The position numbers and the translations under genes are program-made. The notes beneath the pieces are model-generated. The model was not told the DNA's origin, ran no database searches, and was given only the letters and a program-made list of their open reading frames with translations. DNA of 40,916 nt, taken from the IMG/VR virus record IMGVR_UViG_3300035698_004044, positions 1 through 40,916 of that record; one strand, 5' to 3'. The DNA comes from a virus. Numbering within the stretch: the stretch's first letter is position 1; each line of letters starts with the position of its first letter. Shown here piece by piece: positions 762 to 37,843 of the stretch.

Positions 762-1439
762 TTGAAAACAGTACTTTCCTTATCAGGAGGTATGGACTCC
801 ACGACCCTGCTCGGGCTTCTACTTGAGCAGGGTCATGTTGTTTATCCTGTATCATTTACGTACGGATCCAAGCATAATAAGTATGAAAATCAAGCCTCCG
901 TTAACGTAAGACAATATTTCTGGAATCGTTTCCCTGACACACTTATGCCTTTAATCGGAATTGATTTATCCTCAGCGTTCAGCGTCTTCAAATCAGATTT
1001 ATTATTATCAGGGGGAGAGATCCCAGAAGGACATTACGAATCGGAAAATATGAAAGCAACGGTCGTTCCCGGAAGAAATACTATTTTCATTTCCTTTATG
1101 CTTGGTATCGCTGAATCAATTAATTCTGATTTTATATGCCTTGGTGTACATTCCGGTGATCACCATATTTACCCGGATTGTCGTTTACAGTACATCAATC
1201 ACATGCGAGCAGTTGTAAAAGAAGCAACAGAGGGAAAAGTTGATTTGATTGCTCCACTTCTCCAAGATGACAAGGCATCTATTATTCAACAAGGAATAAA
1301 AATTGAAGTTCCGTACTACCTCACCCGTACCTGTTATAAAGATCAACCGCTATCATGCGGAAAATGCGGTAGTTGTGTTGAAAGATTGGAAGCGTTTGAA
1401 AAGAATGGAATAACGGACCCCATTAAATATGCAGACTAA
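762..1439 (+). CDS. queC: 7-cyano-7-deazaguanine (preQ0) synthase QueC
   Basis: QueC converts 7-carboxy-7-deazaguanine to preQ0 with ATP and ammonia. The PP-loop motif SGGMDS lies at residues 8-13. Four cysteines in the family's zinc-binding spacing lie near the C-terminus (about 191, 199, 202 and 205). The 225-residue length is normal for QueC. The start is a TTG directly after the preceding stop; it is chosen because the PP-loop strand begins right there and no upstream alternative exists. In phages, QueC supplies preQ0 for insertion into DNA, which fits the folE and dpdA genes that follow. The downstream ORF overlaps by 11 bp. Confidence 0.93.
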   Translation: MKTVLSLSGGMDSTTLLGLLLEQGHVVYPVSFTYGSKHNKYENQASVNVRQYFWNRFPDTLMPLIGIDLSSAFSVFKSDLLLSGGEIPEGHYESENMKATVVPGRNTIFISFMLGIAESINSDFICLGVHSGDHHIYPDCRLQYINHMRAVVKEATEGKVDLIAPLLQDDKASIIQQGIKIEVPYYLTRTCYKDQPLSCGKCGSCVERLEAFEKNGITDPIKYAD

Positions 1440-1644
1440 AAAACAATCTTTTATAGAAAGCAGTTTAAATACGGCCTCTGGTTTTGCAATCGCATGGGGA
1501 TTGGCTCTATTCGTGATCCCCATGTACGATTCCGCTAATTTACAATCTAAAGATGCGCTTGAAATAACTTTAATTTATACAGCAGTATCTATTATCCGAT
1601 CATATTTATGGAGGAGATTCTTTACTTCGAAAGGACAATCATGA
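1429..1644 (+). CDS. Small membrane protein (DUF7220-like)
   Basis: A 71-residue protein with two predicted membrane segments: [15 protein letters not shown], and a second around the residues [16 protein letters not shown]. The pattern of Ser-Glu/Ser followed by a glycine-containing helix resembles small phage membrane proteins grouped as DUF7220, judged from memory. Its start overlaps the end of queC and its end overlaps the next start by 4 bp, so it is translationally coupled inside the modification operon. Function unknown. Confidence 0.7.
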
Positions 1645-2495
1645 AAACATATATTACTTGGGAAGAAATATTTGAAGCATTATCATTCGTTGACATACCA
1701 GAAAACGTTGTTTACGGGGTTCCCAAAGGGGGAATGCTATGTACCGCCTTTTTAAAACACGCCTCGGTAACTCACAATCCTGAGGAAGCAACGGTAATTC
1801 TGGATGATCTTATTGATTCAGGGGCAACAGAAGAATGGTACGATCAGAAATACCCGCTTATCCCATTTACCTGCCTGATTGATAAAAAGAGAGAAAAGAG
1901 GACAGATTGGATCGTATTCCCTTGGGAAGCAGATCATCCCGGAGAGTCAGGGGATTCTATTGAACAAAATCTGGTACGAGTTATGCAGTACATCGGTGAA
2001 GATGTAAATCGGGAAGGATTACTGGAAACCCCCAAACGAATTGTAAAATCCTATAGTCATTTATTTTCAGGATATGAAAAGAATCCTGCTGATGTGATGA
2101 AAGTGTTTGATTCTGAAACATATGATCAAATCGTCTTATTGAAGGATATTGAGCTTTATTCGATGTGCGAACATCATATGTTACCATTTATCGGGAAAGC
2201 TCATATTGCTTACATCCCTGATGGGAAAGTACTGGGAATATCAAAGTTAGCACGTCTGCTTGAGATATTTACCAGACGCCTGCAGATACAAGAACGAATC
2301 GGGGAGCAGGTAACTACCGCGTTAATGGAGCATTTGAGCCCTAAAGGTGCTGCCTGTATCATTGAAGCACAGCACCTCTGTATGCAAATGCGGGGAATTG
2401 AAAAACAACACTCAGTAATGACCACCAGTTCTTTAAAAGGGGTATTCCTTACCAAACTGGATGCCCGTAACGAGTTAATGGGTTTAATCAAATGA
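1641..2495 (+). CDS. folE: Phosphoribosyltransferase-like domain fused to GTP cyclohydrolase I (FolE)
   Basis: The start at 1641 follows a good ribosome site (GAAAGGACAATC). Residues 1-95 look like a truncated type I phosphoribosyltransferase, with the PRPP-loop-like motif [12 protein letters not shown] at residues 52-63. Residues 105-284 are GTP cyclohydrolase I, with zinc ligands in CEHH (166-169) and Cys237 in HLCMQMRG. FolE makes dihydroneopterin triphosphate from GTP, the first step of 7-deazaguanine (and folate) synthesis. With queC and dpdA on either side, the deazaguanine route is the likely purpose. The role of the fused N-terminal domain is unknown; nucleotide capture or channelling is a guess. 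The stop overlaps the next ATG (ATGA). Confidence 0.92.
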
Positions 2496-2650
2496 AAATC
2501 TATTTTGCTGGTACTCCCGGAACAAAAGAGAGAGAGAGAAAGTGGCAAACTATATTCCAACACCGCCTTGTGTCTTTCTGGGATATTTCACAAAAAGCAT
2601 TTAATGTTCATTTTGCTTTTAAATTAATTGTAAGAAAGAAGAAAAAATGA
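2492..2650 (+). CDS. MKIYFAG-family small protein, copy 1
   Basis: A 52-residue ORF that starts on the folE stop (ATGA) and stops on the next family start (ATGA). It begins [16 protein letters not shown], then a Trp/Gln-rich helix, RLVSFWDIS, and a Lys-rich end. The KERER segment is encoded by a run of six GA dinucleotides. Five further ORFs nearby share the start MK/R-I/V-Y-L/F-A and the middle motif RL-L/V/I-S-F/Y-Y/W. The short beta-strand start resembles the first strand of nucleoside deoxyribosyltransferase-like folds, but the protein is far too short for an enzyme. Function unknown. Confidence 0.6.
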
Positions 2651-2755
2651 AAATCTATTTTGCTGGTGTTCTCGGCGGTAATTCTAAAGAGAGAGAGATT
2701 TCAAATTTGGAAGAATAGATTGTTTTCATACCATTACAGAAAGGAACAGTGGACC
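2647..2755 (+). pseudogene. Frameshifted MKIYFAG-family leader (copy 2), out of frame with dpdA
   Basis: Frame 1 encodes [18 protein letters not shown] and soon stops (TAG at 2716-2718). The rest of the family pattern (F-Q-I-W-K-N-R-L-F-S-Y-H-Y) continues in another frame, from the GA run onward, and that frame reads straight into dpdA. Adding one GA to the five-unit tract at about 2689-2698 would restore a continuous KERERFQIWKNRLFSYHY segment fused to DpdA. Copy 1 has six units at the same place. It is therefore either a decayed leader or a slippage or frameshift switch. Confidence 0.55.
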
Positions 2756-3649
2756 ATGAGTACTAAACAAATTGATTTATTTCTTGATTCTGGGGCTTTC
2801 TCCGCGTTTACTCAAAAGATTGAAATAGATATTCAAGAATACATTGAATTCATCAAAAAGTACAAAAAGTATATTGATGTCTACGCCAATCTGGATGCCA
2901 TCGGGGATCCTGAGCAAACATGGAAGAACCAACGGATCATGGAAAAGGCTGGTCTTTCACCGCTCCCTTGTTTTCACTACGGGGAACCAATTGAGTATTT
3001 AGAAAGATACATCAAAAAATATGACTATATTGCGCTCGGGGGAATGGTCCCCATTTCTACGGCAAGTCTGTTCCCGTGGCTGGATACTATTTTTTCTAAG
3101 TATCTTTGTGATGAGGAGGGGCTTCCTAAAATGAAAATTCATGGATTTGGATTAACCAGTTTAAAGCTGATGCTACGTTATCCTTGGTATTCTGTTGATA
3201 GTACTTCATGGGTAGTCACCGGGAGACTCGGAAGTATTATTGTCCCGAAAAAGAAAAAGGGTGAATACAATTATTTGATTGATCCGTGGAAAGTAGCGAT
3301 ATCATCTCAATCCCCGAACAAGAAAGAAGCAGGGAAACATCTTAGCACATACACCACACTTCAACAACGAATCATTCTGGACTATCTTGATGATAAGGGT
3401 TTCGTTCTCGGGAAATCAGAATTCAAAGTTGAATCTGAAAAATACAAACTAAAAGATAACGAAAAATGGAATGGCAAAGCATTCGGGGATCAGAGAAAAG
3501 TAGAGATCATCGTTGAAGCCGGCATATCGAATGATTACAAGCTCCGGGATGAAGTTAATATCCTTTATTACGTAGACCTCGAAAAGGCTATTCCTGCTTA
3601 TCCTACGGCGTTTAAACGGGAAAAGAAATCAAAGGGGTTCGATCTATGA
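2756..3649 (+). CDS. dpdA: DpdA-like 7-deazaguanine DNA transglycosylase
   Basis: The start at 2756 follows AAAGGAAC; the same frame is open upstream to 2660. The 297-residue protein has the TGT/DpdA-type barrel pattern: FLDSGAFSAF with a candidate catalytic Asp near the N-terminus, NLDAIGDPEQTW, CFHYGEP, ALGGMVP, HGFGLTS and SVDSTSW. These enzymes exchange guanine in DNA for preQ0 or a derivative, which protects phage DNA from host restriction. QueC and FolE upstream would provide the base; QueD and QueE are not in the window and may lie to the left or come from the host. The stop overlaps the next MKIY-family start. Confidence 0.88.
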   Translation: MSTKQIDLFLDSGAFSAFTQKIEIDIQEYIEFIKKYKKYIDVYANLDAIGDPEQTWKNQRIMEKAGLSPLPCFHYGEPIEYLERYIKKYDYIALGGMVPISTASLFPWLDTIFSKYLCDEEGLPKMKIHGFGLTSLKLMLRYPWYSVDSTSWVVTGRLGSIIVPKKKKGEYNYLIDPWKVAISSQSPNKKEAGKHLSTYTTLQQRIILDYLDDKGFVLGKSEFKVESEKYKLKDNEKWNGKAFGDQRKVEIIVEAGISNDYKLRDEVNILYYVDLEKAIPAYPTAFKREKKSKGFDL

Positions 3650-4838: not shown

Positions 4839-5840
4839 ATGAAAATAAATAAAACAAAATTGCTTGAATCATTAGAAGAAATCAAACCGGGATTAACAAC
4901 GAAAGACATCATTGAACAATCGAATTGCTACGTGTTTCTGGGGGATCGAATCGCTACGTATAACGATGACATTGCTGTTTCAATCCCTACTGATATCACA
5001 GTTAAAGGGGCGATTATTGCAAAAGAATTTCATGCCTCCCTCGGTAAATTGAGAGGAGAAGAAATCGAACTGGGACTTCATAACAATGAATTGCAGATGC
5101 AGTCCAAACGAACGAAAGTAGGAATCAAGTTTGATGAAGATATTACTCTGCCCCTGAAAGAACTCGGCAAGATCAAAAAGTGGAAAAAGATTCCTAAAGG
5201 GTTACTGGAGGGAATGAAGTTCTGCATGTTCTCAGCATCCCGTGATATGTCCGTTCCCAAATTTACATGCTTGTACATTACTGATGGACTGATCGTATCA
5301 ACAGACAGGACTCGTGTGACTCAGTACACATTTGATTCAGAATTCGAAGACGCAATTCTTATCCCTGCCGTTAATGCCGGTATGCTTGCAAAATATCCGG
5401 TGACTAAATACGCAGAAACAAATGGGTGGATTCATTTCAAAACAAAAGCTGATCTGATCTTTTCGAGCAGGATATATGGTGAGACGTTTAAAGACTCCAG
5501 CAAGATGTTTAAAATGAAAGGAACAAAGATCACGATTCCGAAGCAACTGGCTGATGCACTTGATCGGGTAGAAGTATTCGGGAAATCTGATATTGATGTC
5601 GATAGCACGGTTCAGGTTCACGTAGAACCCAAAAAGATCACAGTACGTGGGGAAAGCAAGATCGGGTGGGCTGAAGAAACAATGAAGACCAAGTTCGAAG
5701 GACCGGAATTCAAGTTTCAGATTCATCCTCAATTCCTTCGTGATGTTCTGGGGAAAACAGTTGACTGTATGACTGATGGGGACAGATTGTTATTTGAAGG
5801 AGAGAATTTCAAACATGTCATTTCACTCATGGAGGAATAA
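4839..5840 (+). CDS. DNA polymerase sliding clamp (beta-clamp-like)
   Basis: A 333-residue protein with AAGGAG before the ATG. It shows the alternating strand-helix pattern of clamp proteins and ends in a DnaN-like segment (residues FQIHPQFLRDVLG, then GDRLLFEGENFKHVISLMEE). It would encircle DNA and tether the phage polymerase encoded at 7668-10121, loaded by the ATPase at 10961-11896. It is shorter than bacterial DnaN (about 366 residues). The gene order clamp, exonuclease, polymerase, clamp loader supports the call. The stop overlaps the next start. Confidence 0.75.
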   Translation: MKINKTKLLESLEEIKPGLTTKDIIEQSNCYVFLGDRIATYNDDIAVSIPTDITVKGAIIAKEFHASLGKLRGEEIELGLHNNELQMQSKRTKVGIKFDEDITLPLKELGKIKKWKKIPKGLLEGMKFCMFSASRDMSVPKFTCLYITDGLIVSTDRTRVTQYTFDSEFEDAILIPAVNAGMLAKYPVTKYAETNGWIHFKTKADLIFSSRIYGETFKDSSKMFKMKGTKITIPKQLADALDRVEVFGKSDIDVDSTVQVHVEPKKITVRGESKIGWAEETMKTKFEGPEFKFQIHPQFLRDVLGKTVDCMTDGDRLLFEGENFKHVISLMEE

Positions 5841-7078
5841 TGAGCTTCTTTTCAAAGGAAGAAGGAAAGTCTCTTGAAATAGGGAGTAAGGGAACTTTGT
5901 CCTGTCCATCTTGCGGATTAGCAAAGCACGCAGTAAACCCAAAGATGAAACCCTACGGAAAGGGCGAAAAAAAGATTTTAATTATCGGGGCATGTCCAAG
6001 TATAACAGATGATGAAAAAGGAAAGCCTTGGCAGGATAAACAGGGTAGATTCCTGAAACGAACACTTAAAACGAAAGGTATTGACTTATTCAATGATTGT
6101 ATTTCTATCAATGCCATTAACTGCCCTGCTCTTTTGGGGCCATATCCAAGTACACATCAAGTTGGTTGCTGTAGAAAACGGGTGTGGAGAGCGATAAAGC
6201 AATATGAACCAAAGATGATTCTTGCTTTAGGGCAGGATGCAATGACCAGTATCCTTGCTCACAGATGGAAAAGTGAAAATATTGGAAGTATCGAAAGGTG
6301 GAGAGGTCAACAGATTCCAGATCGAGAGACAATGTGCTGGGTTTGTCCCACATACGGGGTTTCACGGGTATTGAATTCGGATAACAAAAATGCCGCAGAA
6401 GCAGTCTGGATGGATGATCTTGACAAAGCACTTGAACGAGCAGAACCAGAATCATTCTTTTTATACGATGATCTTGCCGGTGGGATTCCTGATGATGTAG
6501 CAAGAGTGCAACGATTACCTCAGACAGATGAAGCAGATCGTATTTTGATGGACTTCTTTCAAAGGAAACCTGAACTGGTTGGATTTGATTATGAAACAAC
6601 AGGATTAAAACCACACAGGGAAGGACATGCAATCCATGTTGCTTCAGTTGCTACGGGGTTAGATTGCTTTTCATTTGTATATCCATACGGGTTCAAAGCA
6701 TTGAAGCGAATACTCAGGTCAAAAAGTATAGGTAAGATCGCCCAGAACATGAAATTTGAGACTTTATGGACTCGGGTGATACTTGGTTATCAAGTTCAGA
6801 ATTGGGAGTGGGATACGATGCTCAGTTCTCGTATCATGAATAATGGGAAAGGGGTGTCTGGATTAAAATTTCAAACGTATGTTAGAATGGGGGTAGCTGA
6901 TTATGATTCAGAGATAGGTACATATTTAAAGGGGGCTGATAATAAAGATGCTAATTCATTCAATCGGGTGAAAGAAGCGCCTTTAAAGAAGCTGATGACA
7001 TATTGCGGGTTGGATTCTATTTACACGTATCAGTTAGCCGTTAAGCACAGACATTTCTTGAAATGGAAGGATAGATAA
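5840..7078 (+). CDS. Uracil-DNA glycosylase-like domain fused to PolA-type 3'-5' exonuclease
   Basis: Residues 20-200 match the family 4/5 uracil-DNA glycosylase fold: CPSC at 22-25, and GACPSITDDEKGKPW (50-64) followed by QGRFL, equivalent to the GEAPG...DxxGxPFxGxxG motif. More cysteines (Cys95, Cys110, Cys111, Cys166, Cys169) could hold an iron-sulphur cluster. Residues 245-400 are a DnaQ/PolA-type proofreading exonuclease: exo I D250 and E252 in FDYETTGL, exo II around QNMKFE and WEWDTM, and exo III Y388 and D392 in YCGLDS. The polymerase domain is in a separate gene at 7668, so this is the proofreading half of a split PolA with an added glycosylase-like domain. Whether the glycosylase is active is not certain. 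Confidence 0.85.
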   Translation: MSFFSKEEGKSLEIGSKGTLSCPSCGLAKHAVNPKMKPYGKGEKKILIIGACPSITDDEKGKPWQDKQGRFLKRTLKTKGIDLFNDCISINAINCPALLGPYPSTHQVGCCRKRVWRAIKQYEPKMILALGQDAMTSILAHRWKSENIGSIERWRGQQIPDRETMCWVCPTYGVSRVLNSDNKNAAEAVWMDDLDKALERAEPESFFLYDDLAGGIPDDVARVQRLPQTDEADRILMDFFQRKPELVGFDYETTGLKPHREGHAIHVASVATGLDCFSFVYPYGFKALKRILRSKSIGKIAQNMKFETLWTRVILGYQVQNWEWDTMLSSRIMNNGKGVSGLKFQTYVRMGVADYDSEIGTYLKGADNKDANSFNRVKEAPLKKLMTYCGLDSIYTYQLAVKHRHFLKWKDR

Positions 7079-7079
7079 A

Positions 7080-7310
7080 ATGTTTGAGCTATTAAACGTC
7101 ATTTTAACAAATGTGGCAAAATGGTACAAGTCAAGTAAATACTGTAAACACCGTAAACTGGGATTTATTTTATCATTTGGAGTTAGCTTTTTATGGATAA
7201 TCTATTTTTTCAGTTCTCAACAATACTGGTTGTCCTTAAACTCATTATTCACTATGGGAATTGCTGTACGAGGAGTAGGGAACAATGGTAAACAAAATGA
7301 GGATAGGTAA
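7080..7310 (+). CDS. Small membrane protein
   Basis: A 76-residue protein with AAGGA before the ATG and two predicted membrane helices (LGFILSFGVSFLWIIYFF, then a segment around SLNSLFTMGIAVRGVG). The last residues are polar. The stop overlaps the next start. It sits between the two halves of the split polymerase. Function unknown. Confidence 0.65.
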   Translation: MFELLNVILTNVAKWYKSSKYCKHRKLGFILSFGVSFLWIIYFFSSQQYWLSLNSLFTMGIAVRGVGNNGKQNEDR

Positions 7311-7666
7311 TGTTTTGGAAATTTCATTCAGATTTAATTAAAGAATTTGCGATCACAGGAAAACCTTCTCCTATGTCGATTATCATCAAGCAGTACATAA
7401 TATCACAACATTTACGAACAGCATTGGTAGGGTGGGGTGCTTCTATATCAGAAATGGCAGATGCTATGAGAAACGTTGCTCGGTTTGGGTGTGCGATGAC
7501 TGGTTTATTAGATACAATAGTTGTTAGTGATTCTTTAATAGAAGATTTTGAACGACTCGGCAAAATGGAAGAACTTGCGTATTTACCACTTTCAGAACCA
7601 ATAGCGATGAGTACATCAAGAAAAAGGAAACCTTGGAAAAACAAAGCATATTTTGGGAGGTATTAA
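7310..7666 (+). CDS. Hypothetical protein
   Basis: A 118-residue protein, mostly helical, with a GAGGATAGG ribosome site. The middle (residues RTALVGWGASISEMADAMRN) could be an amphipathic helix; the C-terminus is basic (SRKRKPWKNK). I recognise no family. It lies directly upstream of the polymerase gene, whose ribosome site is within its last codons. Confidence 0.65.
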   Translation: MFWKFHSDLIKEFAITGKPSPMSIIIKQYIISQHLRTALVGWGASISEMADAMRNVARFGCAMTGLLDTIVVSDSLIEDFERLGKMEELAYLPLSEPIAMSTSRKRKPWKNKAYFGRY

Positions 7667-7667
7667 A

Positions 7668-10121
7668 ATGATCGGTCAAATGAATCCAGTAATGCGTGAT
7701 GCTTACGAACTATTCCATGAGGGTACGCTTGCTCTGGCTGATGCTGAGTTCAATGGTATGCGTATTGACGTTGATTACTGTAAGGTTACAACCAAAAGAC
7801 TGACAAAGAAAATCAAGAAAGCTGAAAAGGAGCTTGAAGGAACAACTCTGGGTACATTATGGAAAAAGATATATGGAACAAAAACAAATTACAATTCAGA
7901 TACACAACTTCGAATAATTCTTTTCAAAAAGATGAAACTGAAGTCCCTAAAACAAACAGACAAAGGAGAGGACGCAACAGACGAGGAGGCGTTAACCTTA
8001 TTAAAAGTTGAGGGAACAAAACCTCTTATCAGAAAAAGAAAATATTCAAAAACTCGTGATACCTACATTGGTGGGATGTTACGGGAACAAGTAGACGGAA
8101 TCCTGCACCCGTTCTTTGATCTGGTAATGCCTATTAGTTATCGCGGTTGTGTGGCAAAAGGAACACCAATATTATTAGCACAAGAATTTTTAAAATACCC
8201 AAATGGGAAACCAATTGAGGATGTGAAAGAGGGTGACTTTGTTTACTGTTTTGATGATCAATTAAATCCGGCAATTCGTAAAGTTTTATGGGCTGGTAAA
8301 ACTGGGTGTAAAAAAGTGATAAGGATTCATTATTTTGTGAAAGGATCAAACAAAAGAAGTTACATAGATGTTACACCAGAACATAAAATAAGATTAATTG
8401 ATGGTCAGTATGTGGAGGCACAAAAACTAACAGGTGATTTTAGAGCAGAGTACGACAATAAAAAAACTGCCAAAATAAGAACGTTATCCTGCGCCAGAAA
8501 AGGTGATTCGTTAAGTTTCACTGGACATCTGAAACATGGTAATGGAATATACGAACATCGCTTTATATATGAAAATTTTATTGGGGAGTTAAGCAAGGAT
8601 GATGTGGTGCATCATAAAAATAAAATACATTTGGACCACACTCCTTCTAATTTAAAAAAAATGGCACGACAAGACCACTCAAGATGGCACGCTGAAAATG
8701 CACCAGAAGAACTTAAACAAATAAGAATACAGACACTTCATAATAATAGACATAAAATAATACCAAAGAAAGGGGAAGAACATCCAAATTATTTAGGGCT
8801 GTCAAGGATGAAATGTATTCGATTATTAGCAGAAGCAAAAGGACAACCCACAAAAGTTAATTATACGTTTAACATATTTAAACAATATTTAAAAAAACAC
8901 GGGATTGACCCAAAAATAGTTAAATTGAGATATGATAGAAATGGTAATTTTATTTCAAAACAAAGACTCCAAAAACTCAGTAAATTAGGGAGAGCGAAAG
9001 TACAAACTATTCTCGGAATAGGACACTCAAATCTTTTAAAATTATATAAATATTATGGTATCAGTACAAGTAGAAGATGGGGAAATCAATTCGGTGATTT
9101 TAAACCCGGAAATCACATTATAACAGGAATAGAGGAAATAAACACAACTGTTGATGTTTACGATTTAGAAATTGAAGATTTTAATAACTTTTTTGCAAAT
9201 GAAATTTGTGTTCATAATTCATCAAGCCATATCAACTTCCAGAACATTCCGAAACGTGACTTTGAAATGATGAACATGATCAGGAAGGCAATCTTACCGC
9301 TTCCGGGTTATCAGATCACCGCCATTGATTATTCAGGGGTTGAAGTTATCACAGGTTGTTTTTACCATAAAGATCCTGCAATGATCAAATACGTGACTGA
9401 TCCAAGTACAGATATGCACAAGGATATGGGAGTACAACTATTTAAATTAGATGGTCTTGACAAGAAACACAAAAACGCAGATGGTACTCCCGGTGAAGCT
9501 ACACTAAGGCAAGCAGGTAAAAATGGTTTTGTATTCCCTGAATTTTATGGTGATTATTACGGGAATTGTGCAAGGAATCTTTGGGAGCAGAAAAAAGGAG
9601 TTGTGCTTAAAGATGGAACGCCAATTGATATTCACCTAAAGAACAAGGGGATCGGTTCCTACAAAAGATTTGAAAAGCACGTTGAAAAAGTTGAAAAGGA
9701 CTTCTGGGAAAACAGATTTAAAATTTATACGAAATGGAAAGAGTACACTTGGCAGAATTATATTGAAAATGGGTATATTGATATGCTCACCGGATTCAGG
9801 TGTCAGGGGTCTTTTAATCGTAGACAGTGTTGCAACTGGCCGATACAGGGAACAGCGTTTCACTTGCTTCTCTGGGCGTTTAAAGAGGTGAATAAGTGGA
9901 TCAAAGAGAACAATATGAAAACGTGCATGATGGGTCAGATTCATGATGAAATGCTTTTACATTTATGGCCGTCTGAACGGGAAGTGGTACTGGCAAAAGT
10001 TACGCAGATAATGACAGTTGATATCAGGGAAAAGTTTGATTGGATTAACGTACCATTGGAAGTAGAGGCAGACGTATTTCCTATTAATGGTGCATGGAAT
10101 AAGAAGGAGGTTGCGTTATGA
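7668..10121 (+). CDS. polA: DNA polymerase I-family polymerase domain, interrupted by an intein
   Basis: The start at 7668 follows GGGAGGT. Of 817 residues, 161-517 are an intein and about 460 are polymerase. Motif A has D554 (AIDYSGVE). Motif B is RQAGKNGF with R614 and K618. Motif C is HDE at 759-761. The N-extein (1-160) corresponds to the thumb region and ends YRG; the C-extein resumes SSSHINFQNIP, the conserved SSxPNLQNIP-like segment. There is no exonuclease domain; proofreading is supplied by the gene at 5840. This is the replicative polymerase of the phage. The intein must splice out for activity, since it splits a conserved motif. Confidence 0.95.
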   Translation: MIGQMNPVMRDAYELFHEGTLALADAEFNGMRIDVDYCKVTTKRLTKKIKKAEKELEGTTLGTLWKKIYGTKTNYNSDTQLRIILFKKMKLKSLKQTDKGEDATDEEALTLLKVEGTKPLIRKRKYSKTRDTYIGGMLREQVDGILHPFFDLVMPISYRGCVAKGTPILLAQEFLKYPNGKPIEDVKEGDFVYCFDDQLNPAIRKVLWAGKTGCKKVIRIHYFVKGSNKRSYIDVTPEHKIRLIDGQYVEAQKLTGDFRAEYDNKKTAKIRTLSCARKGDSLSFTGHLKHGNGIYEHRFIYENFIGELSKDDVVHHKNKIHLDHTPSNLKKMARQDHSRWHAENAPEELKQIRIQTLHNNRHKIIPKKGEEHPNYLGLSRMKCIRLLAEAKGQPTKVNYTFNIFKQYLKKHGIDPKIVKLRYDRNGNFISKQRLQKLSKLGRAKVQTILGIGHSNLLKLYKYYGISTSRRWGNQFGDFKPGNHIITGIEEINTTVDVYDLEIEDFNNFFANEICVHNSSSHINFQNIPKRDFEMMNMIRKAILPLPGYQITAIDYSGVEVITGCFYHKDPAMIKYVTDPSTDMHKDMGVQLFKLDGLDKKHKNADGTPGEATLRQAGKNGFVFPEFYGDYYGNCARNLWEQKKGVVLKDGTPIDIHLKNKGIGSYKRFEKHVEKVEKDFWENRFKIYTKWKEYTWQNYIENGYIDMLTGFRCQGSFNRRQCCNWPIQGTAFHLLLWAFKEVNKWIKENNMKTCMMGQIHDEMLLHLWPSEREVVLAKVTQIMTVDIREKFDWINVPLEVEADVFPINGAWNKKEVAL
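8148..9218 (+). mobile_element. Intein with HNH homing-endonuclease domain inside polA
   Basis: 357 residues. The N-terminal splice junction is Gly|Cys-Val-Ala-Lys-Gly-Thr (block A), with a TPEH block B (VTPEHKIRL). The C-terminal end is YDLEIEDFNNFFANEICVHN followed by Ser, with the usual His-Asn|Ser. Within it, residues around 298-345 of the gene form an HNH-type endonuclease (YEHRFIYENF, then DDVVHHKNK, HLDHTPSNLKKM). The region after it is rich in Lys/Asn. The intein is noticeably more AT-rich than the exteins, which fits independent transfer. All splice residues look intact. Confidence 0.92.
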
Positions 10122-24451: not shown

Positions 24452-25156
24452 TTACTCAATCAACTTCCATCCAGCCGGGTACACCGCCGGACTCCATACA
24501 TTAGCGTTAATTTTCGATTCGTAAACCTGGCCGTTAAATTGTACCTGATCCCCAATCTGATACGCATCATGCGCCCCCGTTGGCTGCACCCAATCTGCGA
24601 TGACGGATGGCGGCATCGATAACGCAAACAACGCCGGAACGATGTCAGGTGTCCAATCAGATTGTGTGGTATGGGCCTGGATCGACCGATACAGTTGATT
24701 GTCGTATCTATAAACAATGTCTGGCTCTACGCTCAAGCCAGTCGCCCATACAGGGTACTGGCCAACAATCTCAGTCCACTCCGCTACACTTAAATTAGAC
24801 TTCAACACCCCGCCCTGAATCAGCGGGGCCACTGCGTCTTTAATCTCTGATTCCGGCAGCCTTGCCAGCCATTCGGGGTGTTTCAAACTGTCACGCTGCA
24901 CATCCACATCTGCCGCTTTGTATTGATCTATCTGGCCCTGAGTGGGGTTTGTGTCTTGGGTTTTGATAAGATGGAAACGATACTGCTGAACCATCCCTCC
25001 GTCTGTTTCCACATCGACCAACCCTATGTCTGTTGGCGTTAATTTGCCGCCTTGCAGCTGAACGTTTACTGGTTCGCTGGCGGAATACACCCATTCCAAT
25101 GCGGATGCCTGAGCAGCCATCATCAAACAAATAATCAATGACAATATAAATCTCAT
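24452..25156 (-). CDS. Secreted-type tail protein with carbohydrate-binding-like C-terminus
   Basis: 234 residues from the ATG at 25156 (AAGGAG upstream). An N-terminal signal peptide is evident (MRFILSLIICLMMAAQASA). Two tandem modules near the end (PVWATGLSVEPDIVYRYDNQ, then AYQIGDQVQFNGQVYES and AVYPAGWKLIE) resemble the CBM5/12 chitin-binding-type fold used by phage receptor proteins. It follows the DGR fibre cassette and could be a second receptor-binding or fibre-chaperone component. Confidence 0.6.
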   Translation of the reverse strand: MRFILSLIICLMMAAQASALEWVYSASEPVNVQLQGGKLTPTDIGLVDVETDGGMVQQYRFHLIKTQDTNPTQGQIDQYKAADVDVQRDSLKHPEWLARLPESEIKDAVAPLIQGGVLKSNLSVAEWTEIVGQYPVWATGLSVEPDIVYRYDNQLYRSIQAHTTQSDWTPDIVPALFALSMPPSVIADWVQPTGAHDAYQIGDQVQFNGQVYESKINANVWSPAVYPAGWKLIE

Positions 25157-25169
25157 TTGGTCGCTCCTT

Positions 25170-25430
25170 TTATGTAAGAACATAATATCTATTCACTTTT
25201 TTAATGGTGGTGATAAACGGAATTTGGTTCTGGTATTTCTGGACCTGGCTGATCAAAACATCAGATCCCGTAAACACAACCCGACGATCACAGCATCCAG
25301 GGTTTATAAACTGTAAAGTCAAATATAAACCGGTTTGGTTTTTTGAGTATTTGCTTTTAGTAATCCGGCAGCCGATGATTTCAATCTCCTGATTTAAAAT
25401 ATCATCAATGCGCACCTTGGCCCCGTCCAA
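25170..25430 (-). CDS. Hypothetical beta-rich small protein next to the DGR template
   Basis: 86 residues with a TTG start at 25430; the frame stays open upstream to 25514, inside the template repeat. The sequence (IEIIGCRITKSKY, LYLTLQFINPG, RRVVFTGSDVLISQVQKY) looks like a small beta-barrel (OB-like) fold and resembles a phage family I cannot name. It lacks the four-helix pattern of Avd. It could be a nucleic-acid-binding helper for the DGR or simply a neighbour. Confidence 0.5.
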   Translation of the reverse strand: MDGAKVRIDDILNQEIEIIGCRITKSKYSKNQTGLYLTLQFINPGCCDRRVVFTGSDVLISQVQKYQNQIPFITTIKKVNRYYVLT

Positions 25431-25470
25431 AATTTCCGGCTCTGATGCAAAATCGCAGAGAAAAAAAATA

Positions 25471-25586
25471 AGCTGAGCTGCCTGCCGATATTCGCATTCG
25501 CATTCGTCGAGCCGTTATTCGAGTTCACGTAGAACGGACCTGCATTCGCGCCATTATTCGCATTCCCGCCGACCAGAACGACACGC
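25471..25586 (-). repeat. DGR template repeat (TR)
   Basis: 116 bp aligning without gaps to 25627-25742 (offset 156). I count 17 differences. At 15 of them the TR coding strand has A and the VR has G, C or T. The other two are T to G (25490) and G to A (25549). The TR has 27 A's, so 15 of 27 A's differ but only 2 of 89 other bases. TR variable codons are mostly AAT/AAC, as in known TRs. It starts 36 bp after the fibre gene stop. Confidence 0.92.
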
Positions 25587-25621
25587 ATATGCCACCAGCC
25601 AAAAAATTCGGTCGCGGTCGC

Positions 25622-26941
25622 TTAATAGCAGAGCCGCCCGCCGAACCTCGCAGCCGCATTCGTCGAGCCGCTATTCGAGCTCACGCAGAACGGACCCGCA
25701 ACCGTGCCACTATACGCATTCCCGCCGACCAGAACGACACGCCAGCCCCCGTCAGGAACCGTGTCATAAGACGTATAATAATAATCGCATAAAAATGTAT
25801 CGGAAGACCCTCCAACACTCGCGGGATACACGCCAATAGCGTCCAAAAAATCCGTTGCATAACCGTCAGATTCACCCAGACTCCCGGACAATGTGTATCC
25901 GGTGACAGTGTCACTGGCGTAATCCGTGTAATCAGTGCAAGCATATAGCTGTGATCCGGCGTCTGTCGAGTTGTTAATGTTTACACCGTCTACAAATTTC
26001 CAGACGTGCCCATACCAGTTTTCAATCCCTCGATATGACATATAATCTGTACTGTATGAGACTCCTCCGATACTGACGTTGCCGGTGGCATTTCCGACGC
26101 TGTCTGATAGTCCGCAGGTTGTAACATAACTACCCGCCTCCCACACCCCACCGGACAATGCCGTTCGGCCCGCGCCGATTTTTGTCTGAGCGTTAAAATC
26201 ACCATATTCGGTGATGTATAAAATTTGTATCGCTGCATTACTCGCATGATCGTATTGATGCCAGCCAGTGCCACGAGCCGTTGCCATTGCCCTGTTTTCT
26301 GCAATTGTTTCAAGAGTTTTTGGGTAATACCCTGAGACCGATAGCATTTTATCCCCCGCCACATATACATCAGTATCCGCTGTCACGGCTGTGACAATCG
26401 CAGATGCAGAGGCATCGTACATAGATGCCTCATAAGCGCCGATATAGCTATAGTCTGATGCGGTAGCCGACCCGCCTTTATAGAAAGCTGGGTGAATTGT
26501 GGCCGTTTTTGTGCTGGCATCCGACAGGGTTAAGGTGAATGTACCGTCGCTAATGAAAAAATACCGATAAACCCCTGATTGCGCCTGAACGAAATAAAAT
26601 TTAGGGATTTCAACCATGACCTGTCCGTCTGTGCCGTCAAGTACCGATGCGGTTGTTCCGTCTGATTTTTTAGTTGAATCAGACGCATCAAGATAGTAAT
26701 TTACTGTTCCAGCATCCTGCAATATACAGCGTTTCATGGCCTCCTGAATTGGGAACAACGACACAGCTTCCTCGGTGAACGCCCCATCTGTAACTGTTCC
26801 GATCTGATAGGTGTCCGCGGTTGCGTTCCAGATCACTCCATAGGCACTATTACCTATCCCTACCTCACCCATAAACCCCGCATCTGCAAAGCAAGGAACA
26901 GGAATCAACGTCAGGCATAAAAATAAGATCAATTTTTTCAT
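25622..26941 (-). CDS. DGR-diversified tail fibre / receptor-binding protein
   Basis: 439 residues from the ATG at 26941, which overlaps the upstream stop (TAATG). It has a signal peptide (MKKLILFLCLTLIPVPCFA). The body is Tyr/Ser/Gly-rich (e.g. IENWYGHVWKFVDGVNI), as in C-type-lectin-fold targets. The C-terminus DGGWRVVLVGGNAYSG... is the diversified face: relative to the template, residues at about 13 positions differ (mostly Asn to Tyr, Ser, Val, Ala or Arg). It would bind the host receptor at the tail tip, with variants generated by mutagenic retrohoming. Confidence 0.85.
   Translation of the reverse strand: MKKLILFLCLTLIPVPCFADAGFMGEVGIGNSAYGVIWNATADTYQIGTVTDGAFTEEAVSLFPIQEAMKRCILQDAGTVNYYLDASDSTKKSDGTTASVLDGTDGQVMVEIPKFYFVQAQSGVYRYFFISDGTFTLTLSDASTKTATIHPAFYKGGSATASDYSYIGAYEASMYDASASAIVTAVTADTDVYVAGDKMLSVSGYYPKTLETIAENRAMATARGTGWHQYDHASNAAIQILYITEYGDFNAQTKIGAGRTALSGGVWEAGSYVTTCGLSDSVGNATGNVSIGGVSYSTDYMSYRGIENWYGHVWKFVDGVNINNSTDAGSQLYACTDYTDYASDTVTGYTLSGSLGESDGYATDFLDAIGVYPASVGGSSDTFLCDYYYTSYDTVPDGGWRVVLVGGNAYSGTVAGPFCVSSNSGSTNAAARFGGRLCY
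25627..25742 (-). repeat. DGR variable repeat (VR) at the fibre gene C-terminus
   Basis: The last 116 bp before the end of the fibre gene, matched to the TR at 25471-25586. The 5' third (about 28 bp encoding RVVLVGGNA) is identical, including its adenines. Changes run to within 3 bp of the 3' end of the homology, so no long GC-rich identical 3' block (IMH-type) is seen inside the repeat. The stop codon is TAA at 25622-25624. Confidence 0.92.
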
Positions 26942-28878
26942 TACGGAGTAGCCTCCACCCATGCGGCATCACTCGAATAAAACATCCAACGGAGCGTGCC
27001 ATTGATATTCACACAATACCCCACAATACGTTTGCCCAAAGTATCGGCTGTGTTTTGAATATGTTCGTCTGCCGCCATAGCGGTTCCATTGAGATAAAAC
27101 AAATCACTGGATACCGGTTCAATGTCGACCTGAAATTCATCACCAATTGAAAATATTACATTCCCCGCTACGTGTGCTGCCGGCATTGTAAACACATGAT
27201 CTGCGCCGGTTGCCTTGTAATTTGATATACAATGATTTGTTGATTCAGCCGTTGTTAATACCGATGGAGTCGCTGTGTCTGAAAGCCCGGCAACTGCGAT
27301 TGATTTAAAAGGAGCATCACCGGTATTCACCCCCGATACAGATGAAGCACCGGCACCTAATGTCAGAGCCGATGTGTTAGCTACGTTACCCGTAAGTGTT
27401 ACTGTCCCGGTATTTACGGTTAAGGCGGTTGTTAATGTGGCGTTTGTGACTGTTGCCGCATTGCCTGTCGTACTCCCTGATGATCCGGTTATATTTCCTG
27501 TCACATTCCCGACTAATGGCCCTGCGAATCCAGTTGCACTTAAAATAGCAGTTGCGGAATTAAACGTAAACCCCGCTACTGTTTTCGGGGCAAGCGTTCC
27601 TGTAGCATCCACATTAAACATAGGCCAGCAGGTTGTGTCAGTCACTTCATTTGCTACTGTATAAGTCGTATTTGTATCCGTATAGTTCCCTGCGTGAATA
27701 TCCGTTGCACCTTGATCGGTTGTCCAGTCGATATGCTCATTGGCTACAAAGTCGGAAAAGCCATCGTGGAAAGCACCCCCGGAAGTTGCCACAGCAGTAG
27801 CAGTAGCAACACCAGAAGCATTGCCGACCCAAGCAAGCCCATCAGCTATATTTGGAACGTCATTTGTTCTGCCCGCCCCTACTACCTGAATAACTCCAGC
27901 AGACAAATGTACTCTTGCGACTGTTCCCATTTTCTGAATTAAAGCGGTCCCGGTGGGTTTGGTAGTAGTCAGCACACCAACCCCAACATAAAGCGGATCA
28001 TTCTGTGCGTAGGCATTTGTGACAAGTCCTGTTACCCTGCCGTTGACTGCCACTTTTTCAGTTGCATTAGTAAGCAGTGCTGTTGTTGTAAGACCTACGG
28101 CGGGCATCTTTGCTGCATTACTGTTATCAGCGGGTTCAACAACATAGAAACCGGAAACATTGTAGCTTGTAATATAAACCGGCACCCCTATTGCGATTGT
28201 GGATGTTCCCGCCCTTGCTTCAATGTGCAATTGTTCAACGGTTCCGGTTACTGTTCCAGAAATATTGGCTGCGTTAAATGTCGGGGAAGATCCGCTGGTT
28301 ACATCCTGATTGATATAACCGTCTTTTGTGGCGGTGAGTAGTTTATAAGTCGTTCCATCGGGGATGTTGTCGAGTGTGCCGATTATGGCTACTATTTCAG
28401 CAGATGAGTCTACGGTGGGGTCTGTCTCTGCTCCCGCCAATTCAGACGTTTTGAGATAATCCTGAGTAGTTTCAGTATATGTTGAAACGTCGGATGCTAT
28501 TTGATACCCTAACATCGTTTTCACTTCAGTAGAATCCAATGCATCAATCGCACCACCGCTTGATCTTCCCAATAGTGTGCCCTCAGCAATAAGCATTGCT
28601 TCTGGATTCTCATCAGTATCAGCCTTTAATATTGTATTAGCCCCGTAAAGACTGTTAGCAACAACTCCTGCCGCTACAATCATATCTACATCAATATCAA
28701 AATCAAACTTATCAGAGTCGATCTTACCATCTTTATCAGCATCCCAGTCAACCAACTTCATCCAGAGCCCTGAGAGGAATGGCATAGATACATCTGAGTA
28801 AGCCACTGTTACTACTGCTGGTGAGACCACCAAACAAATCAGTATGAAGAATAAAATCCATGATTTTCTTATATTCAT
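26941..28878 (-). CDS. Large tail fibre protein with signal peptide
   Basis: 645 residues after AAGGGGG. An N-terminal hydrophobic signal (SWILFFILICLVVSPAVVTV) is followed by a D-rich EF-hand-like segment (DWDADKDGKIDSDKFDFDID). The rest is Thr/Ala/Gly/Val-rich with fibre-like repeats (GNVTGNITGSSGSTTGNAAT). The C-terminal 110 residues may be a trimerised tip (QVDIEPVSSDLFYLNGTAM). Role: shaft or side fibre. It is coupled to the DGR target by overlapping stop and start, so the two probably interact. Confidence 0.75.
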   Translation of the reverse strand: MNIRKSWILFFILICLVVSPAVVTVAYSDVSMPFLSGLWMKLVDWDADKDGKIDSDKFDFDIDVDMIVAAGVVANSLYGANTILKADTDENPEAMLIAEGTLLGRSSGGAIDALDSTEVKTMLGYQIASDVSTYTETTQDYLKTSELAGAETDPTVDSSAEIVAIIGTLDNIPDGTTYKLLTATKDGYINQDVTSGSSPTFNAANISGTVTGTVEQLHIEARAGTSTIAIGVPVYITSYNVSGFYVVEPADNSNAAKMPAVGLTTTALLTNATEKVAVNGRVTGLVTNAYAQNDPLYVGVGVLTTTKPTGTALIQKMGTVARVHLSAGVIQVVGAGRTNDVPNIADGLAWVGNASGVATATAVATSGGAFHDGFSDFVANEHIDWTTDQGATDIHAGNYTDTNTTYTVANEVTDTTCWPMFNVDATGTLAPKTVAGFTFNSATAILSATGFAGPLVGNVTGNITGSSGSTTGNAATVTNATLTTALTVNTGTVTLTGNVANTSALTLGAGASSVSGVNTGDAPFKSIAVAGLSDTATPSVLTTAESTNHCISNYKATGADHVFTMPAAHVAGNVIFSIGDEFQVDIEPVSSDLFYLNGTAMAADEHIQNTADTLGKRIVGYCVNINGTLRWMFYSSDAAWVEATP

Positions 28879-36100: not shown

Positions 36101-37843
36101 AAATTCTTCTTGAATTTCGTTACGAAATACATCAAATTCTTTTTCGAGCGCACCCATATCAACAGAAAAAGTTGAGATAAAACCGTCTTTGGACAACTCC
36201 TGCGCAAATCCGTCAAATCTATTACTGCGAAAAACCTCATCTAATTTTTTATCAAGTTTGGCTAACTCCTCTAAATAATTAACAGTAACAAGAATACCCT
36301 TTTCATTGATAGTAGTAATGTCATCCCCATCCTGCTTTCCTCTTTGCTCAATCAAAACCGCCCTTAAATCAAATAATTTCTTGTATTCTGAAGTAGCTTC
36401 TTTAACCCTCTTTAACATGTCTGCCGCAAAGTCGAATGGGACAACCTCCTCATAACCAGCCGCAACTCTAACTAATTCATCAAGTATTTTTAACGCTGAA
36501 CCAGCCGCAACTAACGCCGCCTTGACTTTCGGACCACCAAAAATAGCAACAATAATACCATATTCCTGAATAATCTTAGGTAAAGTTGCCCACCCAGACG
36601 CAACCGACAAAAAGAACTTACCAACACCAAGAGCCAGTACACCTACATTTTTACCAGCACGAACGAAAGCATCAGCAAATTCTAAAATTTCATCAGAATT
36701 ATCACGAACGTATGAAGCAAGATCCTTTAACGTCGTATTCAATTCACCCACATTATTTTCAAACAAAGAAATCTCAACATCAGCTACAGCAGATTTTAAT
36801 ATTCTCCATTGACCAATAGTGGTTGCCCTCATCTGCGCCGCTATTCTTTCGTTCTCACCTTCCATATCCCCTAATGTTGCTATGTATTCCTTGATCTTAT
36901 CAATACCAATACCCATCAAAGCCGCAACACCACGACCAGCACGTTGACCAAAGATTGACATAATTTCTTCGGCACCAGCACCCTGATCTTTTAATAACTG
37001 TAAAGACCCCAAAAGATCCTGATTATAATTTAATACATCAACCCCTTGTTCCTTATAATGTCTAAAGGATTTGGCGACCTGAACAAAAGAAAATGCTAAC
37101 TGAGTACCAGCCATTGACCCTTGAACACCTGCATTACCTAACTGCCCAATCAATCCAGCAATTTGTTCAATAGAGTAACCAAAAGCAGAACCAATCGCAC
37201 CTACGTACTTGAATGATTCCGCCATCTGTTCCATGTTAACGTTGGATGAAGTCATTGTACCAACGAAAACATCATTTACCCTTGATAGTTCAGAAACCTC
37301 CATACGCATTGCAGTTAGAACATTTGTGGCGATATCTGCCGCACGACCAAGATTAATACTTCCAGCAGTAGCTAAATCAAGCATTTTGGGAAGTGCCGCC
37401 ATTGATGTAACGGCATCGAAACCAGCCATAGAAAGAAACTGCATACCTTCCGCAGTTTGAACAGCAGTCCATTCAGTTGTTTTCCCTAACTCACGAACGA
37501 TATCATTCATTTGTTTAAATTCGTTCTCAGTAACTCCTCTGGTTACTGCTTTTACCTTTGCCATTGTTTGTTCGAATTGAGCACCTGTCTGAATAATATC
37601 CTTTACAAGGAAGAAACCACCCATTGTCATAAAAGCAGAACGCATAGAAAATATCTGGCTCTTAATACCAACCAATGTTTTCTTTACGACAACACCGTGT
37701 TTCTTCCAACGAGCTTCGGCTTGCATTAACTCCTTTGAGGTTTTATTGTCGTATTCCTCAATAAGTTTTTTAGCACGGGTCATTGCCCGTTGCATATCAG
37801 TTAAATCGGCGCCGAGTCTCGCGGTTAAGTGCCCAATTTCCAT
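33122..37843 (-). CDS. Tail tape measure protein
   Basis: 1573 residues after AAAAGGAAAAG. The N-terminus carries the TP901-type tape-measure domain (GAQFEQTMAKVKAVTRGVT, then ELGKTTEWTAVQTAEGM and SMAGFDAVTSM). A long mostly helical middle follows. A glycine-rich membrane-like segment (GGVVAGGVVGGIVGKN and GAQIGGALGGLFG) lies near residues 845-900. The C-terminus has GGYHSGGLRLVGEMGPEL, typical of these proteins. At about 0.15 nm per residue, the tail would be roughly 235 nm long (estimate). Confidence 0.95.
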   Translation of the reverse strand: MEIGHLTARLGADLTDMQRAMTRAKKLIEEYDNKTSKELMQAEARWKKHGVVVKKTLVGIKSQIFSMRSAFMTMGGFFLVKDIIQTGAQFEQTMAKVKAVTRGVTENEFKQMNDIVRELGKTTEWTAVQTAEGMQFLSMAGFDAVTSMAALPKMLDLATAGSINLGRAADIATNVLTAMRMEVSELSRVNDVFVGTMTSSNVNMEQMAESFKYVGAIGSAFGYSIEQIAGLIGQLGNAGVQGSMAGTQLAFSFVQVAKSFRHYKEQGVDVLNYNQDLLGSLQLLKDQGAGAEEIMSIFGQRAGRGVAALMGIGIDKIKEYIATLGDMEGENERIAAQMRATTIGQWRILKSAVADVEISLFENNVGELNTTLKDLASYVRDNSDEILEFADAFVRAGKNVGVLALGVGKFFLSVASGWATLPKIIQEYGIIVAIFGGPKVKAALVAAGSALKILDELVRVAAGYEEVVPFDFAADMLKRVKEATSEYKKLFDLRAVLIEQRGKQDGDDITTINEKGILVTVNYLEELAKLDKKLDEVFRSNRFDGFAQELSKDGFISTFSVDMGALEKEFDVFRNEIQEEFEALVEEASRPINLRMKQLKFERSLISELASEKAALIEVRKQEFAAIKDGTPLTEKETKALHDLVIELKVAEKTQKDHLKAKKDAEKVINDSLTSYQKLEKELARITKLYKDGYLSQDEWVKGIGKAGADSVKKNKNVTEELSKEWENTRIIIQNSIKGWFDALGAGEFQSVKDVLAGLGQSMGELFSAKFSESLSTNLFNSDFAKSFTKDFGDLFGVVFDSEELIAGIAGTVSAGIAAGQSGNPYAMGGVVAGGVVGGIVGKNPQSVAAGAQIGGALGGLFGDDGVMSYGQELGKALAPMAEELMRNTDAIKLNTLSLVHGTDYSGSAQIITKVLPQLTADVFGDRSMLENLALPGLLDPKTLKYQIDKLEKGEDPRWGNTKANPEHLNQIFTQLVEGMGDDLAGFSQIVKSIAFGDIKPLITKMNELGLTMELSTDEIDLLAKAFTHGSTAARNMKDVGPLIMAAFDAIFAQIANDLTKLATDMQPAMESFAESFNVDLNDLQTDTKTTAYNPFKTVTTDWEKSLRDFDNSFGSTIDEYSNIIDLWKSGNVVLDAETQAFYIYFLEAADTIKAGMKQFYQDARDLVVENADQAFGELTGTFNQFDASIKSVKDKWDAFIDDFVDKGGELDSAGVRGLTQQKADAVKETLSNFWKDAFDTEGMSDYAIQLRTLKETATDYFHALREQGLWLELGEDAIEKYGIKLKELNASFKDGILDSAKDIVATSGMTDLEKTIYRINKKYEEQAKVLTEVGASVEEWNTFNQAWGIEINNAQQDALKTMVDFYKNLQQQIGDLIWDLQGGSLSAVQSEEGMMGRYNELLAEAMQSGDIGRLQSFITGDFMNFMKGYGNWAEVSAKIIDDLKMVGDTNTMGLSAEALELVDANMSLATIVQNTADIATAMAVIAGTNGYAAGGYHSGGLRLVGEMGPELENTGASSITSNEDLINALSSGGGNVTVKVYIGDQELKDHTIEVIRNDTEAHKQIQRVAKAG

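Follow-up and report, generated by a model that had tools for sequence, protein, structure and literature searches.

Remnant of a DGR at a viral tail fibre locus, with probable recent deletion of the reverse transcriptase and spacer RNA

Diversity-generating retroelements (DGRs) are usually described as intact machines. In phage BPP-1, mtd, avd, the template repeat (TR) and brt follow each other in that order, and the spacer recruits the reverse transcriptase (RT) complex and primes cDNA synthesis (PMC12875486). In the DGR of the archaeal virus ANMV-1 (KP703175), the fibre target is followed by the TR, the RT and then, at 36106-36402, a gene annotated as hypothetical. Avd, HRDC and MSL have been named as DGR accessory proteins (PMC10053308). 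RT-less DGR loci are also already known (PMC10907252): the degenerate loci of Thiohalocapsa PB-PSB1, which hold a target and its variable repeat (VR) but lack the RT or other parts of the machinery, or carry them in broken form, are chromosomal, transposon-shaped and partly served in trans.

The locus described here lies in a viral DNA stretch of 40,916 bases (IMG/VR record IMGVR_UViG_3300035698_004044), the whole of which we refer to as the window. It resembles BPP-1 in the adenine-specific divergence between TR and VR, in the position of the VR at the 3' end of the gene for a lectin-fold tail protein and in a TR that lies downstream; unlike BPP-1, it lacks the RT, the spacer and Avd. Its relatives share with BPP-1 an RT just after the TR and an RNA spacer between the two, but carry an OB-fold gene beside the RT, and no Avd was found in them. 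With ANMV-1, the window has in common the fibre target, the TR and an 86-aa gene, whose homologue is the hypothetical gene of that virus (43% identity); ANMV-1, unlike the window, retains its RT. Missing machinery beside a target and VR also recalls the Thiohalocapsa loci, but here we are dealing with a phage fibre cassette and a short internal deletion. What is new is this phage fibre cassette with a clean deletion, the recurrence of such deletions in its relatives, where deletions have struck the RT at several points and spared the fibre together with its written variant, and a family of RT-linked OB-fold proteins. RT-deleted cassettes offer a natural test of the role of the RT and of how long hypermutation lasts, and the OB-fold gene points to a biochemically testable accessory factor, linked to RTs across bacterial, archaeal and viral sequences.

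The fibre gene and its repeats

The features of the locus, all on the minus strand, are as follows, in the order in which they are read:

25622-26962, minus: gene for a tail fibre or receptor-binding protein of 446 aa, the DGR target gene, with a C-terminal lectin-like domain that contains the VR
25627-25742, minus: VR, in the fibre gene's 3' end, with 14 codons changed relative to the TR, mostly AAY codons of the TR
25587-25626, minus: spacer of 40 nt between VR and TR, with no significant hairpin (z 0.35)
25471-25586, minus: TR; 15 of its 27 adenines and 2 of its 89 other bases differ from the VR
25466-25473, minus: GCTTATTT, the 5' arm of the stem that closes the structured RNA spacer (Sp) known from relatives; neither its partner AAATAAGC nor the remainder of Sp is present
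25455-25468, minus: approximate position of the putative deletion junction, in and just after a run of eight T, placed by comparison with L016, L069, L006, L005 and others
25170-25430, minus: 86-aa OB-fold gene of a DGR-linked family; the native start codon is lost, only a TTG remains, and homology extends to about 25454
24452-25183, minus: next gene, with a match to the carbohydrate-binding module domain CBM_5_12, outside the DGR

TR and VR are gapless repeats of 116 bp, the TR lying 40 bp downstream of the VR of the fibre gene. They are identical at 99 of 116 positions, while the maximum reached in 100 shuffles of the region was 56 of 116. Read on the coding strand, which is the minus strand, the changed adenines comprise 10 A>G, 4 A>T and 1 A>C, and the contrast between adenines and other bases is highly significant (Fisher p = 7e-10). 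An earlier note on this DNA, made from the letters alone, had given these coordinates, the length, the absence of gaps and the mismatch counts, all of which proved exact on recheck; the adenine-specific pattern that it described likewise stands. No third copy of the repeat, either as a second TR or as a remote VR, was found in the 40,916-base record, and no hairpin stands out just downstream of the VR in the window or in most relatives.

The fibre protein matches a PHROG tail protein (E 8e-84). Its AlphaFold model, built from 25 sequences (pLDDT 77), finds its best match among solved structures in the DGR variable protein TaqVP (E 2.8e-10), followed by Mtd variants of phage BPP-1, so that the gene carrying the VR at its 3' end encodes a target protein predicted to have the DGR lectin-type fold. 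Given the adenine statistics and these structural matches, the cassette is a DGR target without reasonable doubt, as the earlier note had read it. The fibre gene is intact and its product should still be made.

The missing RT and the deletion scar

No RT was found in the six frames of the record with RVT_1, and an HMM built on 41 RTs of relatives, applied unfiltered to the same frames, detected neither an RT nor an RT fragment; phrog_1423 likewise detected no RT. Avd is absent from the window and from all 46 relatives searched with phrog_3206, a profile that detected the BPP-1 control; PF05635 had been considered for this search and was set aside in favour of phrog_3206 after it missed the Avd of BPP-1. 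The claim that the window holds neither RT nor Avd was therefore confirmed. The record starts and stops inside genes and is thus a fragment; among the genes scanned, those for replication and for the tail predominate, and none could be recognised as coding for a portal, terminase or major capsid protein. Absence of the RT from the record is thus not equal to its absence from the virus.

Relatives of the fibre protein provide the reference for what is missing. We gathered 80 viral loci with a homologue of this protein, 40 of which have an A-biased TR just downstream. In 37 of the 40, a single-frame RT that begins at the start of the profile directly follows the TR, some of these being cut by contig ends; two (L007 and L031) are the sole members with no more than a C-terminal RT remnant, and in one (L078) the RT is split over two frames (5729-6991) after a good TR, which may reflect a frameshifted RT or a sequencing error. 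A second survey of relatives yielded further intact cassettes. The usual gene order is fibre with VR, TR, Sp, RT and a small OB-fold gene. Sp measures about 115 nt between TR and RT and contains, in this order, GCTTATTT, TTGGCAAAACACAAAGC, GGTAGG and GAAATAAGC; the RNA is conserved, 9 of its 21 predicted pairs show compensatory changes, and of 55 relatives searched with its covariance model, 25 gave a match at E < 1e-4.

In the window, by comparison, the order is fibre with VR, TR and OB-fold gene, with Sp and RT missing between the last two. After the TR come GCTTATTT, the run of eight T and then homology from about codon 5 of the small gene; the structured spacer expected directly 3' of the TR is reduced to GCTTATTT, and the Sp covariance model gives no credible hit there (best E 3.4). 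Relative to L016 and L069, about 1.2 kb is missing, which takes in Sp beyond GCTTATTT, the entire RT and the opening codons of the OB-fold gene. No ATG, GTG or TTG lies in frame between the upstream stop and the inner TTG of that gene. The breakpoints are approximate because no near-identical intact genome was found (a search for near-identical viral contigs with a 21-mer in the TR, in a collection that may leave out near records, returned none) and the proteins of the reference relatives are 50-62% identical.

With neither RT nor Sp present within the incomplete record, the cassette is the remnant of a DGR and not a functional one. It is very probably a recently inactivated DGR that lost RT and Sp by deletion and whose fibre VR became fixed. 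The ancestor would have had the usual order of the group, with a fibre gene with VR, TR, Sp, RT and OB-fold accessory gene, and its RT and partners would have copied the TR RNA with errors at adenines, the copies being written into the VR. A deletion spanning about 1.2 kb, with short T-rich matches as its probable end points, would then have fused the beginning of Sp to the accessory gene near codon 5, removing the cDNA-priming RNA element, the RT and the start of the accessory gene, and leaving the variable region fixed at the last variant written. Under long decay, changes are expected to be scattered over all bases. Mismatches at non-adenine positions (2 of 89) do not differ significantly from those pooled over 31 relatives (27 of 2568, p=0.25), and the TR/VR pair being as clean as in intact relatives argues for a recent loss, with little drift since the last homing.

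Recurrent RT loss and alternative explanations

Independent RT deletions are found in at least three relatives (L007, L031 and the L216 clade). Compared with L060, L007 lacks about 0.92 kb, that is RT codons 1 to about 306, and keeps the TR, Sp and the last ~50 RT residues; compared with L040, L031 lacks about 0.8 kb, its TR being joined to RT position ~240. The L216 clade, whose members L216, L217, L218 and L215 are the same contigs as L053, L054, L055 and L057, has lost most of the TR, Sp and nearly all of the RT; about 1.14 kb is gone from L216 relative to L213, in which CAGTAGT occurs at both ends of that stretch.

This clade allows VR change to be compared with and without an RT. The RT-deleted pair L053/L057 differs at 25 of 1030 positions outside the VR (fibre gene and edge) and at 0 of 110 within it, whereas the RT-intact pair L024/L028 of a sister clade differs at 14 of 1030 and 20 of 110 (p=6e-7 for the contrast between the pairs); L028 and L032 show 6 differences outside the VR and 21 within. 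The 0 of 110 is not fewer than drift alone predicts (p=0.16), the excess seen with an RT being what has gone. We take this as a strong hint that the VR stops changing after RT loss, from one deleted-lineage pair in a clade other than that of the window, and the VR of the virus studied here is probably frozen too.

The earlier note had offered three fates for the RT: encoded far away, borrowed from another element or the host, or lost. The scar speaks for the last of these. That the cassette still works in trans, with an RT from elsewhere in the virus, from a co-infecting phage or from the host using the TR of the window, we regard as very unlikely, even though an RT accompanied by a TR and spacer of its own could lie in the virus beyond the incomplete record, TR and VR show a clean pattern, RT-less loci are reported to be diversified in trans in Thiohalocapsa (PMC10907252) and the relative L007 retains TR and Sp with no RT in its 35-kb record. 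The TR of the window has no Sp, the element that brings in the RT complex and primes cDNA in BPP-1 (PMC12875486) and that presumably, by analogy, plays the same role in this DGR subgroup; since Sp is gone, a distant or borrowed RT should not be able to revive this TR. In addition, the OB-fold partner is truncated in the window, and in the L053/L057 lineage RT deletion accompanies an unchanged VR.

Loss by deletion also has to be weighed against an assembly error or a minority variant, with most virions of the population carrying the full cassette. The record is a single metagenomic contig and the junction falls in a run of eight T, both of which favour such an artefact; an 8-nt match should, however, be too short to mislead the usual short-read assembler, and RT losses occur with four breakpoint types across different datasets, one of them common to several contigs from different metagenomes. 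We consider this explanation unlikely, and retain a recent deletion of RT and Sp as the preferred reading.

Several other loci deserve mention. L007 (11040-11620) has no RT but combines a TR, an intact Sp (33 bits), an A-specific VR (26/36) and the C-terminal RT remnant; its TR, unlike that of the window, could in principle be used by an RT in trans. About 20 other fibre homologues have neither RT nor small gene downstream, which could reflect either loss of a cassette or its absence from the start. VR-like C termini with no RT or OB-fold gene in the downstream stretch were observed in L008, L010-L014, L021, L022, L034, L037, L043, L052, L064 and L075. Between L008 and L014, the VR region shows 23 changes in 120 positions and the sequence before it 58 in 980, on the basis of which some of these RT-less homologues may have been diversified from elsewhere.

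An OB-fold gene family linked to DGR RTs

The genes downstream of the TR had been described as fibre, lysis and unknown genes without RT motifs. The absence of RT motifs holds, but one of the unknowns, the 86-aa gene at 25170-25430, belongs to a family that adjoins DGR RTs. Its product is 50-62% identical to that of the gene following the RT in eight relatives and 36% identical in a ninth, and 37-63% identical to aligned homologues over the OB core (two alignments). The gene in the window is not itself beside an RT, which is missing there, but homologues lie beside a DGR RT at 90 of 90 informative loci (viral, cellular, ANMV-1 and BK063673). Among 80 viral loci from the family search, 78 have an adjoining DGR RT and the remaining two run into contig ends; in cellular genomes, the figure is 10 of 10, from taxa that include Chlorobiaceae, Deltaproteobacteria, Bacteroidales, Nitrospirae, Omnitrophota and Methanogenium, and the members in ANMV-1 and BK063673 are likewise beside a DGR RT. 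Avd (phrog_3206) was found in none of 38 records from these loci.

The predicted structure is a five-strand barrel with a helix (pLDDT 91.7). By VIA-align, it reaches Z scores of about 5 and at most 5.7, below the level that would indicate kinship, mostly with OB folds (RuvBL domain II, SSB, Teb1 and LEF-3); neither sequence comparison nor Foldseek returned a significant match to a solved structure. Its best BFVD matches are two viral proteins that carry a reverse transcriptase annotation (E 5.5e-6 and 1.9e-5), and these model comparisons suggest that the OB domain is fused to the RT in some viruses; no such fusion occurs among the loci fetched. The family is not named in Pfam or NCBIfam, and in PHROGs there was no match for two homologues and one weak, unnamed match for the protein of the window. 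Homology to bbp3, bbp4 or Avd of BPP-1 was considered and rejected for want of a credible match.

In the DGR accessory literature searched, we found no OB-fold accessory protein, although earlier notice is possible. The family is probably an undescribed DGR accessory family, the accessory role being suggested by its linkage to the RT, and its members may possibly bind single strands. More broadly, the family could be an undescribed, obligate and nucleic-acid-binding partner of a large DGR RT clade that replaces Avd, and the phages of the group could fix a successful fibre time and again through RT deletions between short direct repeats, first diversifying and then freezing; for this combined proposal we hold the prospects to be evenly balanced.

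Another small, conserved-looking gene with an 'LRIHWD...IIEAII'-like motif was observed after the RT remnant in L007 (11571-11915), L031 and L216; it follows the RT or its remnant in relatives that have no OB-fold gene.

Elsewhere in the window, genes resembling QueC, GTP cyclohydrolase I and queuine tRNA-ribosyltransferase stand in a row at 762-3649, which suggests 7-deazaguanine modification of the phage DNA. At 5840-10121, a family A DNA polymerase is spread over two reading frames separated by about 0.6 kb; a uracil-DNA-glycosylase domain is present in the first, and an intein-like splicing domain with an HNH endonuclease in the second.
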